A stretch of DNA of 44,118 nucleotides from Chloroflexota bacterium. Its GTDB lineage: Bacteria; Chloroflexota; Limnocylindria; P2-11E. The position numbers and the translations under genes were made by a program. The stretch covers positions 1 to 44,118 of the forward strand of contig JACPOT010000012.1 in NCBI GenBank assembly GCA_016191385.1, given 5' to 3'. Under the pieces are notes generated by a model that made no database searches, was not told where the DNA came from, and saw only the letters and a list, made by a program, of their open reading frames with translations. Of the stretch, positions 31,625-44,118 are shown one piece after another. How positions within the stretch are numbered: the stretch's first letter is position 1; every line of letters begins with the position of its first letter.

Positions 31625-32914
31625 ATGGGTCGCGTGACCTATTCCCCCCGCTCCGCCGGACTCGCCGCGCTGCTGTCCGCCTTGCTCCCCGGCCTCGGCC
31701 AGGCCTACGCGGGCGGCTGGCGTCGCGCGCTGGTCTTCGTGGCCGCCCCCGCCGCGGGCCTCGCGATCTTCGCCGCGGCCTTCCTGCTGATCGAACCCGT
31801 CGCGGCCGCGATGGTCCGGCGCGCCGCCCTCGTCGCTCTCCTCGTCGTCGGCGGCCTCTTCGCGTACCACGTCATGTCGGTCATGGATGCATTCGCCTCC
31901 CGGACGATGGCCCGCCGAAGCACCCGCGACGCGGCCATCCTCGTCGTCGCGCTGCTTGGCCTCGCGCTGCTCTACGCGGGCCTGCAGCGGCAGTCGAACG
32001 CGTGGGCGGGCGTGGTCGCCGGCGTGTTCGAGCAGACCACGGGCCGTACCGTGGGAGCGGGCACGTCAGCGGTGGGCACGACCGCGCCGGGATGGTCGGG
32101 TCGCGACCGGCTCAACGTCCTGCTCCTCGGGCTCGACAGCCGCGACGACCAGATCACCCAGAACACGGACACCGTCATTCTCCTGAGCCTCGACCCCGTC
32201 GACCAGACCGGCTCGATGCTGTCGATCCCCCGCGACACGCTGGTGGAGATCCCCACGGTCGGAAGTGACAAGGTCAACGCCGCGTACGCCTACGGCGGCG
32301 GTGGGGAGAAGGGCGGCGAGTTCGCGCGCCGGACCGTGGAACGGTTCCTGGGCGTGCCCATCCACGCGTACGCCCTGATCGACTTCGCCGCCTTCCGCGA
32401 GACGATCGACAGCGTCGGCGGCATCCTCGTCGACGTTCGCCGGGCGCTCCGGGACGAGGCGTACCCGACCTCCGACTACGGGATCGAGCGCATCTCGCTC
32501 CTCGCGGGGCCGCAGGTCATGGACGGCGACGAAGCGCTGCGTTACGCGCGGTCGCGCCACGACAGCAACGACTTCAGCCGGGCGCGGCGGCAGCAGGCCG
32601 TCATCCTGGCCCTGCGCACGCGTCTCGGCCTGGGCGGCGTGTTCCGCCTGCCCGGGATCGTCCAGCGCGTCGGCCCGCTGGTGCGCACGAGCTTCGACCC
32701 TGGGAACGTGCTGCCGCTCGCCCGCACCGCGCTCTCCATCGACGTCTCGGCCATCCGCAGCGAGCAGCTCCTGCCGTGCAACATCGACGTCCCCCACTGC
32801 GAGCTCGAGGAGCAGAACGCCGCCGATGGCTACTACCTGATCCCGGACCTGGCGAAGGTCCGGTCGCTGGTGACGGACCTCTTCGCGGGCCGGCTGCCCG
32901 CGTCGTCGCGCTAG
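31625..32914 (+). CDS. LytR-CpsA-Psr (LCP) family protein with N-terminal multi-TM domain
   Basis: RLNVLLLGLDSRDDQITQNTDTVILLSLDPVDQTGSMLSIPRDTLVEIP, KVNAAYAYGGG, ALRYARSRHDSNDFSRARRQQAVI; N-terminal LLPGLGQAYAGGWRRAL. Confidence 0.9.
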   Translation: MGRVTYSPRSAGLAALLSALLPGLGQAYAGGWRRALVFVAAPAAGLAIFAAAFLLIEPVAAAMVRRAALVALLVVGGLFAYHVMSVMDAFASRTMARRSTRDAAILVVALLGLALLYAGLQRQSNAWAGVVAGVFEQTTGRTVGAGTSAVGTTAPGWSGRDRLNVLLLGLDSRDDQITQNTDTVILLSLDPVDQTGSMLSIPRDTLVEIPTVGSDKVNAAYAYGGGGEKGGEFARRTVERFLGVPIHAYALIDFAAFRETIDSVGGILVDVRRALRDEAYPTSDYGIERISLLAGPQVMDGDEALRYARSRHDSNDFSRARRQQAVILALRTRLGLGGVFRLPGIVQRVGPLVRTSFDPGNVLPLARTALSIDVSAIRSEQLLPCNIDVPHCELEEQNAADGYYLIPDLAKVRSLVTDLFAGRLPASSR

Positions 32915-33888
32915 GGCTTGGCGCTGCCCGTGTACACGGGCGTCACCCACGAGGCGTAGCGCTCGTTGTCGCCGCGCACGCTCTCGAAGTAGACGGCCTT
33001 GAGGCGCTTGGTGATCGGGCCGACCTCGCCGTCGCCGACGGTGCGATGATCGATGGTCGCGACGGGCGAGATCTGCGCGCCCGTCCCGCAGAGGAAGACC
33101 TCGTCGGCGATGTAGAGCTCGGTGCGGTCGATCTGACGGATGGAGACCGGGATCCTTTCGTCCTCCGCGATCTTCAGGATCCCGCTGCGCACGATGCCCT
33201 CGAGGATATTGTCGGTGCCGGGAGGCGTGAGCAGGACCCCGTCACGCACGAGGAAGATGTTCTCCGCGCTGCCCTCCGACACGTGACCGTCCTGGGTCAG
33301 GACGATGGCCTCGTCGAACCCGGCCTCCTGCGCTTCGGTCTTCGCCAGGGCGGCGTTCACGTACGAGCCGGTGATCTTGCTGCGCGCCGGGATGGCGTTG
33401 TCGTCGGTCCGGCGCCACGACGAGACCGCGCACGAAACGCCGCGGTCGATGTCGATGTAGGTGCCGAAGGGGACGGCGAACACGGTGAACGCGTCTTCGA
33501 GGTCGTGCAGACGCACGCCGATGAGCTCGCTGCTCTTGTAGGCGAGGGGACGGATGTAGGTGTCCTCGCGGTAGCCGCAGCGCCGGAGCACCTCGAGCGT
33601 GATGTCGCTCAGCTCCGCCACGCTGTAGGGGATGCGGATGCGCATGACCTTGCACGAGCGGTGGAGCCGCTCGAAGTGCTCGGTCAGATGCAGGACATAG
33701 AGCTGCTCGTGGGCCGGGTTCCAATACGCGCGGATGCCCTCGAAGACGCCCGTGCCGTAGTTGAAGGCGTGCGTAAGCACGGAGATCTTCGCGTCGGCGA
33801 CCGGGAGGTACTTGCCATCGAGGAAGGCCCACGCGGTCTTGGGGGCCGCTCCGCGACGGAGCGTGGAGGACGTGCGGGCGAGTGCCAT
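32911..33888 (-). CDS. ilvE: Branched-chain amino acid aminotransferase
   Basis: LTHAFNYGTGVFEGIRAYWN, HVSEGSAENIFLVRDGVLLTPP, FLCGTGAQISPVATIDHRTVGDG. Confidence 0.94.
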   Translation of the reverse strand: MALARTSSTLRRGAAPKTAWAFLDGKYLPVADAKISVLTHAFNYGTGVFEGIRAYWNPAHEQLYVLHLTEHFERLHRSCKVMRIRIPYSVAELSDITLEVLRRCGYREDTYIRPLAYKSSELIGVRLHDLEDAFTVFAVPFGTYIDIDRGVSCAVSSWRRTDDNAIPARSKITGSYVNAALAKTEAQEAGFDEAIVLTQDGHVSEGSAENIFLVRDGVLLTPPGTDNILEGIVRSGILKIAEDERIPVSIRQIDRTELYIADEVFLCGTGAQISPVATIDHRTVGDGEVGPITKRLKAVYFESVRGDNERYASWVTPVYTGSAKP

Positions 33889-33965: not shown

Positions 33966-34009
33966 GGTACTGAGGAGTACCATCCAGCGCGGTCTGACCA
34001 GAGCGCTGG
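33966..34009. promoter_or_regulatory. tctC leader with nested palindromes (candidate operator)
   Basis: GGTACT-GAGG-AGTACC (33966-33981) followed by CCAGCGC-GGTCTGACCAGA-GCGCTGG (33984-34009). Confidence 0.5.
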
Positions 34010-34044: not shown

Positions 34045-35103
34045 ATGGCTCATCGATCGTTCGCACGCGTGCTCACCGCGCTCGCAACGACGGCGCTCAT
34101 CGCCGCCGCGTGTGGCGGGACCGCCCAGCCCAGTCCCACGGCCGCTCTGACCGCCGCGGGCGGCACGGCCGCACCCACGACCGCGCCGACCGCGGCGCCG
34201 GTGCTCAGCCGCCCCGTCGAGTTCGTGATCAGCACGGCTCCGGGCGGCGGATCGGACATCTACGCGCGCATCTGGATCGCCGCGATGGAGAAGGAGAAGG
34301 CGCTCAGCACGTCCGTGCTTCCCGTCAACAAGGAAGGCGGGGCCGGCGCGGTCGCGTTCACGTACGTCTTCGAGAAGAAGGGCGACCCGCACTACATCAT
34401 GGTCACCCTCAACAGCTTCTTCACGACGGTCATCACGCAGAAGCTCCCGTACAAGGCGACCGACTTCACGCCTCTCGCGAACATGGCGCTTGACCCGTTC
34501 TTCCTCTGGGTCAACGCCGATAGCACGTGGAAGAACGCCGGCGACTTCGTCAAGGCCGCGCAGGACAACGCGCTGACGGTGTCGGGCACCGGGTCCAAGC
34601 AGGAGGACGAGGTCCTCTTCCGGCGGATCCAGGACCTCGCCAAGACGAAGCCCTTCAACTACGTCCCGCAGTCCGGCGGGGGCGCCGTCGCGACCGCCCT
34701 CGCCGGCAAGCAGGGCGGCGTCGTCGTCACGGTCAACAACCCGAGCGAAGGCCTCGGCCTGTACCAGGCGAGCCCGCCGAAGATCAAGCCCCTGTGCGCC
34801 TTCACCGCGGACCCCATCAAGGAAGGCGCGTACAAGGACCTCGCGACCTGCAAGTCGCAGGGTCTCGACATCACCGACTACTTCATCGTCCGCGCCATCG
34901 TCGGGCCCCCCGGCCTGACCGCGGCGCAGACGACGTTCTGGGCCGACACCTTCAAGAAGGTGGCCGACTCCGCTGACTGGAAGAAGTTCATGACCGACAA
35001 CGCCCTTCAGCCCAACTACCTCGCAGGCGACGCGCTCAAGAAGCTCTTCGACGACTACAACAAGCTGCACCAGGACATCGCGCAGAAGAACGGCTGGCTC
35101 TAG
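34045..35103 (+). CDS. tctC: Tripartite tricarboxylate transporter (TTT) substrate-binding protein, TctC/Bug family
   Basis: Lipobox IAAACGG; RPVEFVISTAPGGGSDIYARIW; followed by TctB- and TctA-like genes. Confidence 0.88.
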   Translation: MAHRSFARVLTALATTALIAAACGGTAQPSPTAALTAAGGTAAPTTAPTAAPVLSRPVEFVISTAPGGGSDIYARIWIAAMEKEKALSTSVLPVNKEGGAGAVAFTYVFEKKGDPHYIMVTLNSFFTTVITQKLPYKATDFTPLANMALDPFFLWVNADSTWKNAGDFVKAAQDNALTVSGTGSKQEDEVLFRRIQDLAKTKPFNYVPQSGGGAVATALAGKQGGVVVTVNNPSEGLGLYQASPPKIKPLCAFTADPIKEGAYKDLATCKSQGLDITDYFIVRAIVGPPGLTAAQTTFWADTFKKVADSADWKKFMTDNALQPNYLAGDALKKLFDDYNKLHQDIAQKNGWL

Positions 35104-35110
35104 GGCCGGT

Positions 35111-35596
35111 TTGCGTCCGTACCAGGTCGCGACGGCGGCGATCTTCCTTCTGATCGCCGCCGTCGCCATGTTCGACACCCGATCAGGAGCGCTCCCGACG
35201 TCGGCCGCCGGCGTGCCGGGAGGGCTGCGCGGCGGGTGGTATCCCTTCTGGTCGGGGGCGGTCGTGGCGGTCGCCGCGATCGTCGTCGGAGCGCAGACGC
35301 TTCGCCGGCCTGACACCGAGCCCGGCGTGTTCAAGGACCGCGGCGCGGTCCTCTACCTCGCGAAGTTCATCCTCCCGATGATCGTCACGACCTATCTCAT
35401 GTCGGACAAGCTGCTCGGGTTCTACGTGGCGACGGCCGCGTACGTCGCCTACTACGCGGGTCTCGTCGCTCGCTATCGCTGGTACTGGGCGGTCCTGGCC
35501 GGCATCGCGATCCCGCTGGTGATCTACCTGGTTTTCGAGGTCGCGTTCAAGGCGCTGCTCCCGAAGAGCGTCTTCTACCCGACGACGCCCTTCTAA
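35111..35596 (+). CDS. tctB: TTT small membrane subunit, TctB-like
   Basis: Four hydrophobic helices, position between tctC and tctA, TTG start. Confidence 0.8.
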   Translation: MRPYQVATAAIFLLIAAVAMFDTRSGALPTSAAGVPGGLRGGWYPFWSGAVVAVAAIVVGAQTLRRPDTEPGVFKDRGAVLYLAKFILPMIVTTYLMSDKLLGFYVATAAYVAYYAGLVARYRWYWAVLAGIAIPLVIYLVFEVAFKALLPKSVFYPTTPF

Positions 35597-37117
35597 GTGG
35601 ACGTCCTCGGGTCCCTAGCCGGCGGCTTCGCCACCGCGCTCCAGGCCAACAACGTGCTGTTCCTCCTCGCCGGCTGCATCCTCGGGCTGATCATCGGGGT
35701 GCTGCCGGGGCTCGGCGGCACGAGCGGCGTCGCGATCCTCCTGCCCATCAGCGTCTACATCGCGCGCGACAACTCGGCGACGACCGCGATCATCTTCCTG
35801 GCGGGCATCTACTGGGGCGCCCTCTTCGGCGGAGTGGTCACGTCGATCCTCTTCAACATCCCCGGGGAGCCCTGGGCGGTCGCGCTCCTCTTTGACGGCT
35901 ATCCACTGGCGAAGCGGAAGGGCAAACCCGGGGTCGCGCTGGCGAGCTCGTTCATGGCCTCGTGGGTCGGCGCTCTCTTCGCCACGATCCTCCTGACGTT
36001 CCTCGCGAAGGAGCTCGCCGACGTCGCCCTCCGCTTCGGTCCGGCCGAGCTCTTCGCCGTCTTTGTCCTCTCGTTCGCGACGCTCATCGGACTGGGGGCG
36101 GAGTCGCCGATGAAGGCCGTGATGATGGTGGCCTTCGGTCTCCTGCTCGCGGCGATCGGCTTCGACACCATCACCGGGGAGCCGCGCCTCGCGTTCGGGC
36201 AGATCAGCCTGCTGTCCGGGATCGGCTTCGTGCCCGTGACCATCGGCCTCTTCGGGATCGGCGAGATCATCGCCTCTGCCGACGAGGCCGGCATCGGGTA
36301 CGTCGAGAAGATCGCCGCGCGCGTCGGCCTCAAGGACATCCTCGAGACGTTCGCGGCGCTCCGGAAGCGGATCTGGCTGGTCATCGCGAACGGCGTGATC
36401 GGGTTCTTCTTCGGCAGCCTGCCGGGCCACGGCGCGACCGCCGGCTCCTTCCTCGGCTATGGCCTCGCGCGGCAGTGGGCGAGGAACAAGGAGGACTTCG
36501 GCAAGGGCGAGATCTCGGGGATCATGGCGCCGCAGGCCGCCGCCGACGCGTCGGCCGTCGGATCCCTCGTGCCGATGCTGGCCCTCGGCGTCCCGGGGTC
36601 ACCGACGTCGGCCGTGATGATGGCCGGTCTCTTCATCTGGGGGCTGCAGCCGGGCCCGCTCCTCTTCATCGACCATCCCGACTTCGTCTGGGGCCTGATG
36701 GCGAGCATCTACCTGGGACACCTGCTGACGTTCCTCATCTGCCTGACCGCGGTGCCGCTGCTCGCGATGATCATGCGCGCTCCGCACGGGATCCTCACGC
36801 CGTTCATCGTCATCATCTCGGTGATCGGCGCCTACTCGCTCAACAACGACATGAAGGACGTCGCCATCACGATCGTGTTCGGGATCATCGGGTACTGGCT
36901 GCGCAAGATGAAGTACCCGCTGGCTCCGCTCGTCGTCGCCCTCGTGCTCGGCGACTCGACCGAGCGCGAGCTGCGCAAGGCGCTCATCGGCAGTCAGGGT
37001 GAATGGAGCGTCTTCTTCGTCAGTCCGATCTCGGCCATCCTCATCGCCCTGGCCGTCGTCCTCCTCGCCCTTCCGCTCATCGGGCAGCTGCGGCGGCGCG
37101 GGACGGCCCAAGCCTGA
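35597..37117 (+). CDS. tctA: TTT large membrane subunit, TctA
   Basis: GLIIGVLPGLGGTSGVAILLPIS, GALFGGVVTSILFNIPGEPWAVALLFDGYPLA, GSLPGHGATAGSFLGYGLAR, LALGVPGSPTSAVMM. Confidence 0.95.
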   Translation: MDVLGSLAGGFATALQANNVLFLLAGCILGLIIGVLPGLGGTSGVAILLPISVYIARDNSATTAIIFLAGIYWGALFGGVVTSILFNIPGEPWAVALLFDGYPLAKRKGKPGVALASSFMASWVGALFATILLTFLAKELADVALRFGPAELFAVFVLSFATLIGLGAESPMKAVMMVAFGLLLAAIGFDTITGEPRLAFGQISLLSGIGFVPVTIGLFGIGEIIASADEAGIGYVEKIAARVGLKDILETFAALRKRIWLVIANGVIGFFFGSLPGHGATAGSFLGYGLARQWARNKEDFGKGEISGIMAPQAAADASAVGSLVPMLALGVPGSPTSAVMMAGLFIWGLQPGPLLFIDHPDFVWGLMASIYLGHLLTFLICLTAVPLLAMIMRAPHGILTPFIVIISVIGAYSLNNDMKDVAITIVFGIIGYWLRKMKYPLAPLVVALVLGDSTERELRKALIGSQGEWSVFFVSPISAILIALAVVLLALPLIGQLRRRGTAQA

Positions 37118-38196
37118 TGGGACTCATCGGCGACCTCGCGCTGCTCGCGGTGGCGTTCGCGATCATCCTCGCCGGGGCCGAGCTCTTCACGAACGGCATC
37201 GAGTGGCTAGGCGACCGCCTCGGACTGAGCGAGGGGATGGTGGGCAGCGTCCTCGCCGCGGTCGGCACGGCCATGCCCGAGACCATGATCCCGATCATCG
37301 CGATCCTGTTCGTGGGCACCCAGGCGGCCGAGGAAGTCGGCATCGGCGCCATCCTGGGCGCGCCGTTCCTCCTCTCCACGGCCGCGATGTTCGTCACCGG
37401 CGTGGCCGTCCTCATCTACCACCGCCGCGGCCGCCGCAAGTCGCACCTCGTCATCAACCAGGTCGTCGTCGGGCGCGACCTGCGCTTCTTCCTCGGTATG
37501 TACACCGTGGCGATCGGGATGGGCCTGCCCTTCTTCGATAAGCCTGTCGCACTACGCATCGCGGTCGGGATCGCGCTCATCCTCGCATACGTCTGGTACG
37601 TCCGGCGCACGGCGAGCGACCCGAAGAGCGAGAGCTCCGAGCAGCTCGGCCTCCTCCACCTGACCAAGTGGGGGCTTCAGCCAAAGGCCGTGGCGCTTCT
37701 CGAGGAGCACGGCGTCGCGGCGCCCGACACGCGGAGCATCGTCATCCAGGTCTTCATCTCGCTCGTCGCGATCGTCGTCGGGGCACAGATCTTCGTGGAC
37801 AAGATCCAGTCGATCGCGAGCACGATCGGTGTCGCGCCATTGATCCTCTCGCTCATCATCGCGCCGCTGGCCACGGAGCTGCCCGAGAAGTTCAACAGCG
37901 TCATCTGGATCCGGCAGCGCAAGGACACCCTGGCCATGGGGAACATCAGCGGCGCGATGGTCTTCCAGTCATGCATCCCTGCGGCCATCGGGATCGTCTT
38001 CACACCGTGGGTGCTCAACGAGTTCGCCCTAGCGTCGGCGGTGATCGCCATCGGCGCGGGCATCCTCATGCAGATCTACCTGCGGACCGGCAACGTCATC
38101 ACGGGGCGGGAGCTGGTCTCGGTGGGCGTCTTCTACTTCGCGTTCATCCTGTGGGTCGTGGCCTTCCCGCACACGGCCCCGCCCCCGCTCCCCTAG
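37117..38196 (+). CDS. CaCA-family sodium/calcium exchanger-like membrane protein
   Basis: Two alpha repeats: GSVLAAVGTAMPETMIPIIAI and LSLIIAPLATELPEKFNSVIWI; ATGA overlap with tctA. Confidence 0.85.
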   Translation: MGLIGDLALLAVAFAIILAGAELFTNGIEWLGDRLGLSEGMVGSVLAAVGTAMPETMIPIIAILFVGTQAAEEVGIGAILGAPFLLSTAAMFVTGVAVLIYHRRGRRKSHLVINQVVVGRDLRFFLGMYTVAIGMGLPFFDKPVALRIAVGIALILAYVWYVRRTASDPKSESSEQLGLLHLTKWGLQPKAVALLEEHGVAAPDTRSIVIQVFISLVAIVVGAQIFVDKIQSIASTIGVAPLILSLIIAPLATELPEKFNSVIWIRQRKDTLAMGNISGAMVFQSCIPAAIGIVFTPWVLNEFALASAVIAIGAGILMQIYLRTGNVITGRELVSVGVFYFAFILWVVAFPHTAPPPLP

Positions 38197-38272: not shown

Positions 38273-39262
38273 ATGAAGCGATCCGTAGTACTTCTCGCGC
38301 TGCTCGCGCTCGTGGTCACGGCCTGCGGCAGCCTGCCGGGCCTCGGCAGCGGCCTCAAGATCGGGATGGTCACGGACATCGGCCAGCTTGAGGACAAGTC
38401 GTTCAACGAGTTCTCGTGGAAGGGCGTCCAGGACGGCGCCAGGGCCGTCGGCGGCACCGCGACCAACATCGTCACCAAGGACACCGCGGACTACAAGCAG
38501 AACATCCAGCAGTTCATCGACCAGAAGTACGACGTGATCGTCACGGTCGGGTTCCTGATCGGAACGGACACACTGAACGCGGCGAAGGCCAACCCGACCG
38601 TCCAGTTCTTCGGGGTGGACCAGTTCGTCGCGGACCCAGCACCGGCCAACTACCAGGGTCTCCTGTTCGCGGAGAACCAGGCCGGCTACCTCGCGGGCAT
38701 CGTCGCCGCGAACATCACGAAGTCGAACAAGATCGGCGCCGTCGGCGGCCGCTCTGACGTGCCACCGGTCGTCGCGTACATCGCCGGCTACACGGCAGCG
38801 GCGAAGGCCGAGAAGCCGAACATCCAGGTCCTCGTGAACTACACCGAGGACTTCAACGCGCCCGACAAGGGCGAGGCGTCGGCCAAGACCATGATCGGCC
38901 AGGGCGCCGACGTGATCTTCCAGGTCGCGGGCCTCACCGGCGCGGGCGCGCTCCGCGCCGCGTGCAACGCGAAGGTCTATGGCATCGGCGTCGACGTGGA
39001 CCAGTACCTCAGCCTTCCGGACGCCAAGGCCTGCATCATCACAAGCGCCGAGAAGAAGCTGCAGATCGCCACGGCCGAGGCCATCAAGCGCTTCAAGGAC
39101 AAGGGCAAGCAGGGCGGCAACTTCTTCAACGACGCGAAGAACGGCGGGGTCGCCGCGTCGGAGATCCGCAACCTCACGCCCGTTCCCGCCGGGCTCCAGG
39201 ACAAGCTGAACAAGGCCCTCGAGGACATGAAGAGCGGGAAGCTCAACCCGCCGACCAAGTAG
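38273..39262 (+). CDS. BMP (Med/PnrA-like) family ABC transporter substrate-binding lipoprotein
   Basis: Lipobox VVTACGS; IGMVTDIGQLEDKSFNEFSWKGVQDGA, YDVIVTVGFLIG, NQAGYLAGIVAA. Confidence 0.93.
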   Translation: MKRSVVLLALLALVVTACGSLPGLGSGLKIGMVTDIGQLEDKSFNEFSWKGVQDGARAVGGTATNIVTKDTADYKQNIQQFIDQKYDVIVTVGFLIGTDTLNAAKANPTVQFFGVDQFVADPAPANYQGLLFAENQAGYLAGIVAANITKSNKIGAVGGRSDVPPVVAYIAGYTAAAKAEKPNIQVLVNYTEDFNAPDKGEASAKTMIGQGADVIFQVAGLTGAGALRAACNAKVYGIGVDVDQYLSLPDAKACIITSAEKKLQIATAEAIKRFKDKGKQGGNFFNDAKNGGVAASEIRNLTPVPAGLQDKLNKALEDMKSGKLNPPTK

Positions 39263-39279
39263 CGGCAGTACCCCAGCGC

Positions 39280-40836
39280 ATGACCGGGCAGGAGCGGGTC
39301 GCCGAGAAGGCGGCCCGCTCCTCCACTTCCCCCGCGCTGGAGATGCGCGGGATCACGAAGCGTTTCCCGGGAACGCTCGCTAACGACGGGATCGACCTAG
39401 AGATCCGCCCCGGCGAGATCCACGCCCTCCTCGGCGAGAACGGCGCCGGCAAGTCGACCCTCATGAACATCCTCTACGGGCTGCTCACGCCAGACAGCGG
39501 CGAGATCCTCATGGACGGCGCCACGGTGACGATCCGCGATCCCGCCGACGCCATCGCGCGCGGCATCGGCATGGTCCATCAGCACTTCATGCTCGTTCCG
39601 GTCCTGAGCGTCGCCGAGAACGTGATGCTGGGATCCGAGGTCATGCGCGGCCCGGTGCTCCTCGACGTGGGCGAAGCCGCGAAGCGCATCCGCGCCCTCG
39701 CCGAGCAGGTCGGCTTCACGATCGACCCGGGGGCGCGCGTCGAGCAGCTCAGCGTGGGCCAGCAGCAGCGCGTCGAGATCGTGAAGGCGCTCTACCGCCG
39801 CGCCCGGATCCTCGTCCTCGACGAGCCGACCGCCGTGCTGACCCCGCAGGAGACGGACGAGATCTTCACCGTTCTCCGCCGCCTGCGGACCGAAGGCACG
39901 AGCATCGTGTTCATCAGCCACAAGCTCGACGAGGTCCTGCGGATCGCGGACCGCATCACCGTGATCCGGCGCGGCAAGGTCGTGGGCGAGCTGGACCCGG
40001 GCGCAACGACCGAGCAGGAGTGCGCGGACCTCATGGTCGGGCGGTCGGTGTCGCTGAAGGTGGACCGCGGCGTGGCCCATCCGGGTGAGCCCGTTCTCTC
40101 CGTGCGCGGCCTCGTGGTCCGGGACGACCGCGGCCACGAGACGGTCCGCGGCGTGGACCTCGAGATCCGCAGCGGCGAGATCGTCGGCATCGCCGGGGTC
40201 GCCGGCAACGGCCAGGAGGAGCTCGTCGAGGCCATCACGGGCCTGCGCAAGCCCTCGGCCGGCCACGTCTCTCTGACGGGCCGCGACGTGACGGGCGCCG
40301 CGCCGCGGGCGGTCCGTGACCGCGGGGTCGGGTACGTCCCCGCGGACCGGCAGCGCTACGGACTCGTGCTGGGCTTCCCCGTCGACGACAACACCGTGCT
40401 CACCGAGTACCTGAACGAGCCCTACGCGCACGGCGTCGTGCGCGACGACCGCGCCATACGCAAGCGCGCCGAAACGCTCATCGTCGAGTTCGACATCCGA
40501 GCGCCGGGTCCCGACGTGCGGGTCTCGACGCTGTCCGGTGGCAACCAGCAGAAGGTCGTGGTGGCGCGCGAGTTCGGCGGGGACAAGCTGCTGATCCTCG
40601 ACCAGCCCACGCGCGGCATCGACGTCGGCAGCACGGAGTTCATCCACAAACGCACCGTCGAGCAGCGCGACGCGGGGTCTGCGGTCCTGCTCGTGTCGGC
40701 TGACCTTGACGAGGTCCTCGAGCTTTCGGACCGCGTCCTCGTCATCCACCGCGGCCGGATCGTCGGCGAATTCGACGCCGCGTCCGCCGAGCGGGACAAG
40801 ATCGGCCTGCTCATGGCGCGCGGGCAGGCGGCATGA
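39280..40836 (+). CDS. Nucleoside/sugar-type ABC transporter ATP-binding protein (two NBDs)
   Basis: LLGENGAGKSTLMNILYGLL, LSVGQQQRVEIVKALYRRARILVLDEPTAVLTPQE; second NBD LSGGNQQKVVVAREFGGDKLLILDQPTRGIDVG. Confidence 0.95.
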   Translation: MTGQERVAEKAARSSTSPALEMRGITKRFPGTLANDGIDLEIRPGEIHALLGENGAGKSTLMNILYGLLTPDSGEILMDGATVTIRDPADAIARGIGMVHQHFMLVPVLSVAENVMLGSEVMRGPVLLDVGEAAKRIRALAEQVGFTIDPGARVEQLSVGQQQRVEIVKALYRRARILVLDEPTAVLTPQETDEIFTVLRRLRTEGTSIVFISHKLDEVLRIADRITVIRRGKVVGELDPGATTEQECADLMVGRSVSLKVDRGVAHPGEPVLSVRGLVVRDDRGHETVRGVDLEIRSGEIVGIAGVAGNGQEELVEAITGLRKPSAGHVSLTGRDVTGAAPRAVRDRGVGYVPADRQRYGLVLGFPVDDNTVLTEYLNEPYAHGVVRDDRAIRKRAETLIVEFDIRAPGPDVRVSTLSGGNQQKVVVAREFGGDKLLILDQPTRGIDVGSTEFIHKRTVEQRDAGSAVLLVSADLDEVLELSDRVLVIHRGRIVGEFDAASAERDKIGLLMARGQAA

Positions 40837-41963
40837 GCGGGGCGCGCGCGCGCCTCGGGTCGTGGTGGCGGCTGGCGCAGCTGCCGGTGCTCGCGATCGT
40901 GCTTGCCCTCGTCATCGCGGCCGCCATCATCATCGTTTCGAGCGCGTTCACCGGGACCGGGTTCTTCCCGCTCCTCCCCCTCTTTGCCTACGGCGCTCTC
41001 TTCGCCGGCGCCTTCGCGAGCGACATCGCTCTCAACAACACGCTGGTCGCCGCGGCCCCGCTCATGCTCGGCGGCCTCGCCATCGGCCTCGGCTTCAAGG
41101 CCGGCCTCTTCAACATCGGCGTCGCCGGGCAGTTCCTCGCGGGCGCGTTCGCGTCGGCGGTCGTCGGCGCGGCGCTCGCGCAGCAGCCCGTCGCCCTCGC
41201 GGTGACCGCGTCACTTCTCGCCGCCGGCGCGGCCGGCGCCGCCCTCGCGTTCATCCCGGGCTGGCTCAAGGCGCACACCGGCGCTCACGAGGTCGTCACG
41301 ACGATCATGCTCAACAACGCGACCGCGCTCCTCCTGGCGTGGGCCGTGACGGATCTCGTGCGCGCTCCGGTCTTCACCTTCCCCCGCACGGGCGAGATCG
41401 GGAACTCCGCGCTGCCGGTCCTGCTCGGACGCAACCTGCACCTCGGCGTTCCCCTCGCGCTGATCACGATCTTCGCCGTCCGCTGGCTCCTCGAGCGCAC
41501 GACGTTGGGCTTCGAGATCCGCACCGTGGGCGCGAACCCGAACGCCGCGCGCTACGCCGGGATGCCGCCGCTGGTCATCGTCCCGCTGACGATGGCGCTG
41601 AGCGGGCTGCTCGGCGGCCTCGCGGGCGGGATCCAGATGCTCGGGGTGATCGGCTTCTACGCCTCGGGCATCAGCGCGTCGGTCGGGTTCGATTCGATCG
41701 CCGTCGCGCTCCTCGGCCGGTCCGACCCCATCGGCATCCTCTTCGCGGCCATCCTCTTCGGGGCGTTCCGCGCCGGCGCCCCGCTCATGCAGATCACGAC
41801 GTCGGTGCCCATCGAGATCATCGACATCATCCAGGCGCTCATCATCCTGTTCCTCGCCGCGAACCTGATCGTGCGACGGGTCTTCCGCCTTCGCGCGCCG
41901 GGCCTCGGCATCGAGGGCGCGACGACCGTCACCCGGACCTGGGGCGAGCAGGTGCGGGGCTGA
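40833..41963 (+). CDS. ABC transporter permease (BMP/nucleoside system)
   Basis: GLGFKAGLFNIGVAGQFLAGAFAS, AHEVVTTIMLNN; ATGA overlap. Confidence 0.93.
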   Translation: MSGARARLGSWWRLAQLPVLAIVLALVIAAAIIIVSSAFTGTGFFPLLPLFAYGALFAGAFASDIALNNTLVAAAPLMLGGLAIGLGFKAGLFNIGVAGQFLAGAFASAVVGAALAQQPVALAVTASLLAAGAAGAALAFIPGWLKAHTGAHEVVTTIMLNNATALLLAWAVTDLVRAPVFTFPRTGEIGNSALPVLLGRNLHLGVPLALITIFAVRWLLERTTLGFEIRTVGANPNAARYAGMPPLVIVPLTMALSGLLGGLAGGIQMLGVIGFYASGISASVGFDSIAVALLGRSDPIGILFAAILFGAFRAGAPLMQITTSVPIEIIDIIQALIILFLAANLIVRRVFRLRAPGLGIEGATTVTRTWGEQVRG

Positions 41964-42943
41964 TGAACCTCCTGTTCATCCCCCGCCTCATCGCGGAGCT
42001 GGCTGTCTATCTCGCGACGGTCGTCCCCGACCTCCTGCCCATCGTCCTCACACTCGCGACCCCTCTCGCACTCGGCGCGCTGTGCGGCGTCCTCTGCGAG
42101 CGCTCCGGCGTCGTCAACATCGGGATCGAGGGAACGATGCTGACCGCGGCCTTCATGGGCTACCTCACCGGATTCGCGCTGCACGGATCGATCGGCGCCG
42201 CGGCCGCGATCGCGGCCGGCGTGGTCGTCGCGATGCTCACCGGTGCGCTCCTCGGTCTCCTCCACGCGTGGCTCTGCGTGACGGTGCGGGCGGACCAGAT
42301 CATCGCCGGCACGATCCTCAACGTCGGCGCTCTGGGCCTCACTGCGTACTTCAACCGCCTGATCATCACGCCGTCGGGCCTCGGCGGCGCCGGCGTGATC
42401 CCGCCGATCGTCTTCGGCCTCGGGCCCATCGCCCTCGCGACGCTCGCGCTCGTCGGGCTCATCCACTTCCTGCTGTTCAACTCGCGCTGGGGCCTGCGCA
42501 CCCGCGCCGTGGGTGAGCATCCCAAGGCCGCCGACACGGTGGGCATCGACGTCTTCCGCCAGCGCTACCAGAACGTCATCGCCGGGTGCGCGCTCGCCGG
42601 GCTCGCGGGCGCGTACTTGACCCTCGAGTCGACGGGCTCGTTCCAGAACGGCATGACCGGCGGCCGCGGGTTCATCGCTCTCGCGGCCATGATCTTCGGG
42701 CGCTGGACGCCCATCGGGGCGTTCGGCGGCGCGCTGCTCTTCGGCTTCTTCACCGCGCTCGGAGTGATCGTGCGCGTGCGTCCCGCCGGCGGCGAGCTCG
42801 GCGACATCCTCGCGGCGATCCCGTCATTCTGGTACGCGGCGCTCCCCTATCTCGTGACGGTGGTGATCCTCGCCGGAGTCGTGGGCCGCGCGATCCCACC
42901 GGCCGCCGACGGCGTGCCGTACGAAAAGGAAGCTCGCGCCTGA
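41963..42943 (+). CDS. ABC transporter permease (BMP/nucleoside system)
   Basis: LCERSGVVNIGIEGTMLTAAFMGYL, VRADQIIAGTILN, TGGRGFIALAAMIFGRW; ATGA overlap. Confidence 0.93.
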   Translation: MNLLFIPRLIAELAVYLATVVPDLLPIVLTLATPLALGALCGVLCERSGVVNIGIEGTMLTAAFMGYLTGFALHGSIGAAAAIAAGVVVAMLTGALLGLLHAWLCVTVRADQIIAGTILNVGALGLTAYFNRLIITPSGLGGAGVIPPIVFGLGPIALATLALVGLIHFLLFNSRWGLRTRAVGEHPKAADTVGIDVFRQRYQNVIAGCALAGLAGAYLTLESTGSFQNGMTGGRGFIALAAMIFGRWTPIGAFGGALLFGFFTALGVIVRVRPAGGELGDILAAIPSFWYAALPYLVTVVILAGVVGRAIPPAADGVPYEKEARA

Positions 42944-42945
42944 CC

Positions 42946-43467
42946 TCAGCGACCCTGCGCCTTGAGGTAGCGACGGACATCTTTCATCAGCAGCATCAGA
43001 TGGAGCGGGTCTGTCGGCGAGTCCTCGAAGCCATACCGCTGATAGAACGCGCGTGCGCGCTCGTGCTTCGCGTGGACGAGAAGGACCCGCGCACCGATCG
43101 CGTCCGCAGCTTGTGAAGCGCGAAGCAGCCCGTCCTGCAAAAGCGAGGCACCGAGACCGGCAGCGCGATGGCGGTCGTCCCGCGCGAGCCTCGCGAGCAA
43201 GATCGCAGGGACCGGCCGCTCGCGAGGTTGGCCTCGGAGCGCCCGTTCAGTGGCGTCTTCGGACGCGACGGACGCCGCGGCCAGTGCGTAGGACCCGACC
43301 ACCGTGGTCGGTGCGGTCTCGGTCGTCACCACATAGACACGAGCCGACCCGGACGCTTGGGCGACGAGCGCATGGCGCTTCAGCCACTCGGTCAGCGCTG
43401 GCTCTTCGCATTGGAAGCCTGCGGCCTGATGGTCGGGCCGAAGGAGCTCGGCTTGCCGGTACGCCAC
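42946..43467 (-). CDS. GNAT-family acetyltransferase toxin (TacT/AtaT-like)
   Basis: LARLARDDRHRAAGLGASLLQDGL, ARAFYQRYGFEDSPTDPLHLMLLMKDVRR; paired with DUF1778. Confidence 0.88.
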   Translation of the reverse strand: MAYRQAELLRPDHQAAGFQCEEPALTEWLKRHALVAQASGSARVYVVTTETAPTTVVGSYALAAASVASEDATERALRGQPRERPVPAILLARLARDDRHRAAGLGASLLQDGLLRASQAADAIGARVLLVHAKHERARAFYQRYGFEDSPTDPLHLMLLMKDVRRYLKAQGR

Positions 43468-43470
43468 CGG

Positions 43471-43743
43471 CTACTTCGCGCTGAGCACGCTCGATCGCGC
43501 AAAGAGTCGCTTTAGCCCCGCGTTCTCCCGGGGTGGGCGGTCCAGGAGAGCCTTGAAGCTGGCCCACTGCCGCGGGGACAGTGAGAACTGCGTGCGGTCT
43601 GCCAGAACGCGTTCCGCCTCGAGGCGCGCGGCGTCAACGACGAACTCGGTCAGCGAGCGATCGGTGGTCTCGGCGGCGCGACGAACCAGGCTGTCGACGC
43701 CTTCGGCTACACGAAAGTCCCAGCGGTCCTTGACCTGCTTCAT
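43471..43743 (-). CDS. DUF1778-type (TacA-like) antitoxin
   Basis: MKQVKDRWDFRVAEGVDSLVRRAAETTDRSLTEFVVDAARLEAERVLADRTQFSLSPRQWASFKALLDRPP. Confidence 0.88.
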   Translation of the reverse strand: MKQVKDRWDFRVAEGVDSLVRRAAETTDRSLTEFVVDAARLEAERVLADRTQFSLSPRQWASFKALLDRPPRENAGLKRLFARSSVLSAK

Positions 43744-43750
43744 GGCTGCA

Positions 43751-43778
43751 CCATTGTACACACGAGTGCCGTACATGG
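43751..43778. promoter_or_regulatory. Imperfect palindrome upstream of the antitoxin (candidate operator and promoter)
   Basis: CCATTGTAC-ACACGAGTGCC-GTACATGG; minus strand contains TACAAT, a plausible -10. Confidence 0.5.
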
Positions 43779-43805: not shown

Positions 43806-43863
43806 TTGACGACCCCGGGCCCTCTGCCTACGCTGTGCGGTCTACTGGTCTGACCATCAGACC
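43806..43863 (+). promoter_or_regulatory. Candidate promoter with FadR-type operator for the GntR gene
   Basis: TTGACG (43806-43811), 17-nt spacer, TACGCT (43829-43834), then TGGTCTGACCA (43846-43856) and GGTCTGA-CCA-TCAGACC (43847-43863). Confidence 0.65.
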
Positions 43864-43885
43864 GAAACGCGGGAGGTAGCGGGAA

Positions 43886-44118
43886 ACGGCCGTTCTGCAG
43901 CCCATCCGGCGCGACCGTCTTTACCAGGGCATCGTCTCGCAGCTCGGTGCGCTCATCGAGCGCGGAGAGCTCAAGCCCGGCGACCAGCTCCCCGCGGAGC
44001 GCCAGCTCGCCGAGCAGTTCGAGGTCTCGCGCGCGTCCGTGCGCGAAGCGCTCCGATCGCTCGAACTCATCGGGGTCGTCGAGACGCGCGCCGGCGGCGG
44101 CACGTTCGTGCGCCAGGC
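43886..44118 (+). CDS. GntR/FadR-family transcriptional regulator, N-terminal part (runs off the window end)
   Basis: LQPIRRDRLYQGIVSQLGALIERGELKPGDQLPAERQLAEQFEVSRASVREALRSLELIGVVETRAGGGTFVRQ; no canonical start codon, 5' end uncertain. Confidence 0.88.

Follow-up and report, generated by a model that had tools for sequence, protein, structure and literature searches.

The window analysed here, a 44,118-nucleotide stretch of DNA, is contig C14 of a Chloroflexota MAG (1.42 Mb, 121 contigs, ~70% complete) whose closest named relatives are Chloroflexi MAGs of soil, groundwater and lake water. It carries the three genes of a tripartite tricarboxylate transporter (TTT), with the TctA, TctB and TctC Pfam domains all present, divergent from ilvE, and it ends within a gntR gene of the FadR subfamily (Table 1). 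The tctA gene is overlapped by a sodium/calcium exchanger-like gene (CaCA), whose top NCBIfam match is TIGR00367, at a score under the cut-off. As in known TctCBA systems, the genes are arranged in the canonical order C-B-A, but in the window they are part of a longer putative operon with CaCA and BMP-type ABC genes, and their substrate is predicted from context and not from receptor similarity.

Table 1. Genes and candidate regulatory elements of the window (positions in nucleotides; strand as noted, "." for sites)
Feature	Position	Strand	Basis or remark
ilvE	32911-33888	-	divergent from tctC
Putative tct promoter -10 element, TACCAT	33978-33983	+	7 nt before the core; inferred from alignment
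Inverted repeat CCAGCGC-N12-GCGCTGG	33984-34009	.	probably outside the signal
Operator core GGTCTGACC, candidate GntR site in the tctC promoter	33991-33999	.	conserved, 21/21 tctC orthologs
tctC, solute receptor of the transporter	34045-35103	+	PF03401 5.8e-13
tctB	35111-35596	+	PF07331
tctA	35597-37117	+	PF01970 1.2e-134
CaCA, sodium/calcium exchanger-like	37117-38196	+	PF01699; overlaps tctA, same putative operon
BMP-type ABC genes (bmp, ATPase, two permeases)	38273-42943	+	PF02608 (bmp), gene calls, synteny; probably the end of the tct transcript
Putative gntR promoter TTGACG-17 nt-TACGCT	43806-43834	+	sequence and ortholog alignment
Candidate gntR operator CGGTCTACTGGTCTGACCATCAGACCG	43838-43864	.	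core 43847-43855; third half-site GACC 43860-43863
gntR (FadR subfamily), 5' part	43886-44118	+	PF00392 3.3e-23; contig end cuts the gene

A 10-mer, GGTCTGACCA, had been reported by the first-pass annotation in the tctC leader and again ahead of gntR. A search of the window confirmed it at 33991-34000 and 43847-43856 and found no further exact copy. The first copy, which consists of the core GGTCTGACC and A34000, sits in the 156-bp gap between ilvE and tctC, with 44 nt separating it from the tctC ATG, as annotated. The gntR-side copy is fuller: it extends to TGGTCTGACCA and lies within a 27-bp near-palindrome, CGGTCTACTGGTCTGACCATCAGACCG, in which 11 of 13 positions pair by inspection, whereas in the tctC-side copy the outer (first) T is replaced by C. 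Both copies, TGGTCWGACCA at gntR and GGTCWGACC at tctC, agree with the form TKGT-N3-ACMA near promoters that is expected of FadR-subfamily operators, for which the consensus is GGTnnnACC (PMC4494728, PMC7660256). At gntR, most orthologs by far have a further GACC next to GGTCWGACC, the arrangement being GGTCAGACCACCTGACCA in most of them and GGTCTGACCATCAGACC in the window; members of this subfamily are known to use additional half-sites at a distance of 7-12 nt from the centre (PMC4494728).

Both sites directly follow a putative -10 element. The gntR-side site lies 12 nt past the -10-like TACGCT, and in most gntR orthologs TTGAC and -10-like elements are found at the same spacing. The tct promoter of the window has no convincing -35 element; many tctC relatives carry TAnnAT ~7-10 nt ahead of the core, and several have two cores, in some cases with one of them upstream of the -10 element. 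A consensus promoter scan returned nothing at either the tctC or the gntR site, so the promoter assignments are made solely by alignment. A core placed just after the -10 element at gntR and tctC has the position expected of a repressor site, which implies repression of tct and autoregulation of gntR.

Counts of GGTCWGACC by themselves are barely above chance. There are 12 sites in the MAG, compared to 1 for the reversed control pattern, and 9 of the 12 lie within predicted ORFs, with only the tctC and gntR copies preceding genes; likewise, TGGTNNNACCA has three copies in the MAG, and the gntR copy alone is intergenic. The weight lies on conservation at orthologous promoters. Upstream regions of 22 gntR and 21 tctC orthologs, all from the same uncultured Chloroflexota family, were tested for 2304 palindromic patterns (four bases, a gap of 0-8 and the reverse complement). 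GGTC-1-GACC was present upstream of 20/22 gntR and 21/21 tctC orthologs, while the runner-up reached 2 in its poorer set; the remaining two gntR regions carry GGTCAGGCC, with one mismatch, and with these the core is kept at 22/22. Orthologous regions totalling 303 kb held 35 GGTCWGACC sites, of which 34 were intergenic; control palindromes were rare or mainly coding.

The first-pass annotation had named two results that would speak against its proposal, namely that the word is common in coding DNA and that it is not conserved upstream of orthologs. The genome-wide search bore out the former in part, given the nine coding sites, along with an excess over the reversed control, and the latter was contradicted by the orthologs. 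We also looked for a wider regulon. The other GGTCWGACC sites of the source MAG (G000) are nearly all coding, and the remaining intergenic ones in two relatives (G015 and G001) are scattered, with no sharing between them found, so the regulon looks local. Separately, GGTCAGACC is intergenic at single loci of relatives before a TauE/SafE permease gene, before bmp and near small rpsF/ssb-like genes (L109 1501; L082 5181, on a reverse-complemented locus; L089 8545).

The regulator itself could be classified from the fragment and its orthologs. The window fragment contains the N-terminal winged helix, and the contig ends before the C-terminal FCD domain, which was detected in the full-length G020 ortholog (PF07729, 2.5e-29); its earlier assignment to the FadR type is therefore sound. 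None of the NCBIfam equivalogs fits, as the scores for PdhR (122/330), LldR (121/311) and GlcC (90/301) show, all of the PdhR, LldR, GlcC, NanR and FadR models falling far below their cut-offs. By curated score, then, the window GntR is an ortholog of none of these, though it is predicted to work like PdhR, LldR and GlcC. It shares with them the winged helix and FCD domain, the GGTnnnACC operator (PMC7660256), the adjacent extra half-site (PMC4494728), a predicted autoregulation and linkage to genes of a carboxylate-oxidising enzyme and a transporter. It differs in its predicted targets, an enzyme resembling oxalate oxidoreductase (OOR-like) and a TTT transporter, and in the centre of its site, which is fixed as C-W-G. 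An FCD GntR beside a small-carboxylate enzyme is thus known in kind, and what is new is the gene content. Regarding its start codon, the window gene aligns at ACG 43886, CTG 43895 being possible. The start is CTG in 15 of 22 orthologs, TTG in 3 and ATG in 2 (gene starts in L017-L037), and it lies at a fairly constant distance past GGAGG; the window has ACG (43886-43888) at the aligned position. Start codons other than AUG are thus conserved in the gene of this putative repressor.

In relatives, gntR is followed by three genes of a 2-oxoacid:ferredoxin oxidoreductase. The top PDB match of all three subunits is the Moorella oxalate oxidoreductase (1e-101, 2e-83 and 3e-18), the next-best matches being weaker (1.6e-63 vs 1e-101 and 2e-57 vs 2e-83). 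In NCBIfam, oxalate oxidoreductase also ranks first for all three, at scores below the curated cut-offs (380.6/500, 348.5/590 and 95.5/230 for alpha, beta and delta, respectively). The enzyme shares with that of Moorella thermoacetica (5c4i) the subunit set alpha, beta and gamma-delta, and the conserved Arg31 of the PIRP motif, Arg109 (GNR) and residue 112. All alpha subunits read have the motif arginine, as YPIRP or, in G021 and G022, as FPIRP; in the Moorella enzyme the arginine of YPIRP binds oxalate (PMC5020499). Unlike in that enzyme, position 116 of the plug loop is Ala in all alpha sequences read. The Asp116 that it replaces is part of the Moorella mechanism, and we call the enzyme OOR-like on account of this substitution and the sub-cut-off scores. 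It also differs in its setting, uncultured Chloroflexota and Methylomirabilota, together with a TTT transporter. We found no OOR genes in the window or in the MAG assembly, which is ~70% complete and whose contig ends in gntR; this end and the incompleteness may explain the absence. With gntR incomplete and the OOR-like genes absent from the assembly, the link to the enzyme is transferred from relatives, and because the contig stops within gntR, the first-pass annotation missed the likely biological sense of the pair of sites.

Across relatives, the site stays with the promoter when the genes behind it change. Two of them, G021 and G022, are without tctCBA. Its position next to ilvE is taken there by the gene of an MFS carrier, whose top PDB match is the oxalate:formate antiporter OxlT (8hpj, 9e-70) and whose second match is 6g9x, with the core upstream in its promoter. 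OxlT is thus represented outside the window, as a positional substitute in these two relatives only. In G015, tct has moved beside gntR, and the ilvE-side promoter drives CaCA and keeps two cores. In Methylomirabilota, another phylum, gntR is preceded by TGGTCTGACCA and forms one contiguous run with the OOR-like delta, alpha and beta genes and tctC-B-A; their GntR is 42-44% identical, and tctB is represented there by a tctB-sized gene. Conversely, three members of the family (G023-G025) have neither gntR nor tctC nor the OOR-like enzyme.

These observations make it very likely that the core copies are operators of one FCD-type GntR with a shared regulon of gntR and tct, and very probably this regulator switches the transporter operon. 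The earlier proposal that the tct operon, some 10 kb distant, is under the control of this GntR protein is supported by the conservation at both promoters and by the persistence of the site where an OxlT-like carrier replaces tct or CaCA moves in. A GntR dimer would bind GGTC-W-GACC and thereby prevent transcription of its own gene (autoregulation), of the oxidoreductase operon that lies behind it in relatives, and of tctCBA, CaCA and probably the BMP-type ABC genes; we infer binding and repression from the sites, with blocking expected because both directly follow a -10 element. The tctC site of the window genome counts against this model in that it is without the outer T and without a good -35.

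Three other accounts of the shared motif were considered. Chance recurrence of the 10-mer could draw on the 12 copies of the core in the MAG, nine of them inside ORFs, yet it is hardly conceivable that 21/21 and 20/22 orthologous promoters would keep the core by chance while their flanks have diverged between genera, and we rejected it on the outcome of the 2304-pattern test. The first-pass annotation had also described the tctC core as centred in CCAGCGC...GCGCTGG. This outer repeat is perfect in the window, but its centre is 1.5 bp off that of the core, its 7-bp arms match at 0-3/7 positions in relatives (5/7 in one), and comparable inverted repeats occur ~5 times per kb of the window, which is the chance level; it was ruled out as an operator part and is probably no part of the signal. 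Nor does it seem to act in RNA. The arms are able to pair, and the leader could have held a hairpin serving as an attenuator or processing site in place of an operator, but this is very improbable and was rejected: the arms are unconserved, the leader repeat folds no better than shuffles (z -0.05), and the left arm, lying between the putative -10 element and the transcription start, would stay untranscribed. Somewhat less remote, though still improbable, is that the tctC site belongs to another FadR-subfamily paralog, the core being shared only because GGTnnnACC is the general subfamily consensus (PMC4494728); most relatives do have a second GntR with an HTH 50-54% identical. This second GntR differs in its recognition helix (SRITVRD), and its sites, near UbiD-type genes, are of the AATGGTATGACCATT type; it was undetected in G000, G004, G017 and G018, which are incomplete genomes, yet the tctC site is kept there; and the central GGTC-W-GACC is common to the gntR, tctC and OxlT promoters. 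For its part, this FCD paralog has a second predicted regulon, with AATGGT-N3-ACCATT sites (L256 5984 and 6040; L038-L045) near genes for a UbiD-type decarboxylase and CoA-transferase-like proteins.

As to the effector, the FCD domain would bind the imported carboxylate, most likely oxalate or a similar dicarboxylate. The repressor would then come off the DNA, and uptake would be induced along with oxidation to CO2 and the accompanying reduction of ferredoxin; the calcium/sodium exchanger may, speculatively, handle calcium entering or freed with oxalate. We infer ligand and substrate from gene content and structural matches, and on that basis oxalate is the somewhat favoured substrate of the system. 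TTT transporters carry many carboxylates and their substrates are rarely predictable, and the same GntR might respond to another carboxylate, such as pyruvate, glyoxylate, oxaloacetate or a related 2-oxoacid, as a PdhR-like sensor beside a pyruvate-type or novel 2-oxoacid:ferredoxin oxidoreductase. This seems less likely, though not negligible: the sub-threshold OOR scores, the Ala at position 116 in all alpha subunits read and the lactate-type carriers within the OxlT-like family (the second match, 6g9x) would suit it, but oxalate oxidoreductase comes first in PDB and NCBIfam for all three subunits, with the alpha and beta matches far ahead of pyruvate enzymes, the PIRP arginine is invariant and OxlT is the nearest match of the carrier that replaces tct.

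On a wider reading, a dedicated oxalate-responsive repressor might govern a full oxalate module, comprising TTT or OxlT-like uptake, OOR-like oxidation and a calcium/sodium exchanger for disposal of the counter-ion, both in uncultured Chloroflexota of soil and freshwater and in Methylomirabilota; we give this reading about an even chance. Oxalate oxidoreductase would then gain a regulator, and the TTT family an importer of oxalate; neither came up in the literature searched, nor did an oxalate-carrying TTT transporter or a published link on point between GntR, oxalate and TTT. Oxalate is a major carbon acid of soils, and a CoA-independent route for its oxidation in Chloroflexota would matter for carbon turnover there. 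More immediately, a recurring 10-mer yields a testable regulon in bacteria for which none of the close relatives found is in culture, a likely substrate class for a TTT transporter, and a candidate regulator and operator for OOR-like enzymes.

Several features of the neighbouring genes were observed along the way. Nearly all relatives keep CaCA in the cluster, a possible link to calcium oxalate. The BMP-type ABC genes exist in two distant versions in relatives, 35-40% identical and with differing gene order, which occupy the same place (L080, L082, L084, L091 and L092), amounting to a positional replacement. In G009 the receptor gene tctC is duplicated in tandem (L095 2074-2904 and 3082-3912, on a reverse-complemented locus). 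Finally, between the ABC permease and gntR, the minus strand of the window encodes a TacAT-like toxin-antitoxin pair (42946-43776), made up of a TacA1-like antitoxin (43471-43776) and then a GNAT protein (42946-43467), which among the genomes compared occurs in the window genome only.
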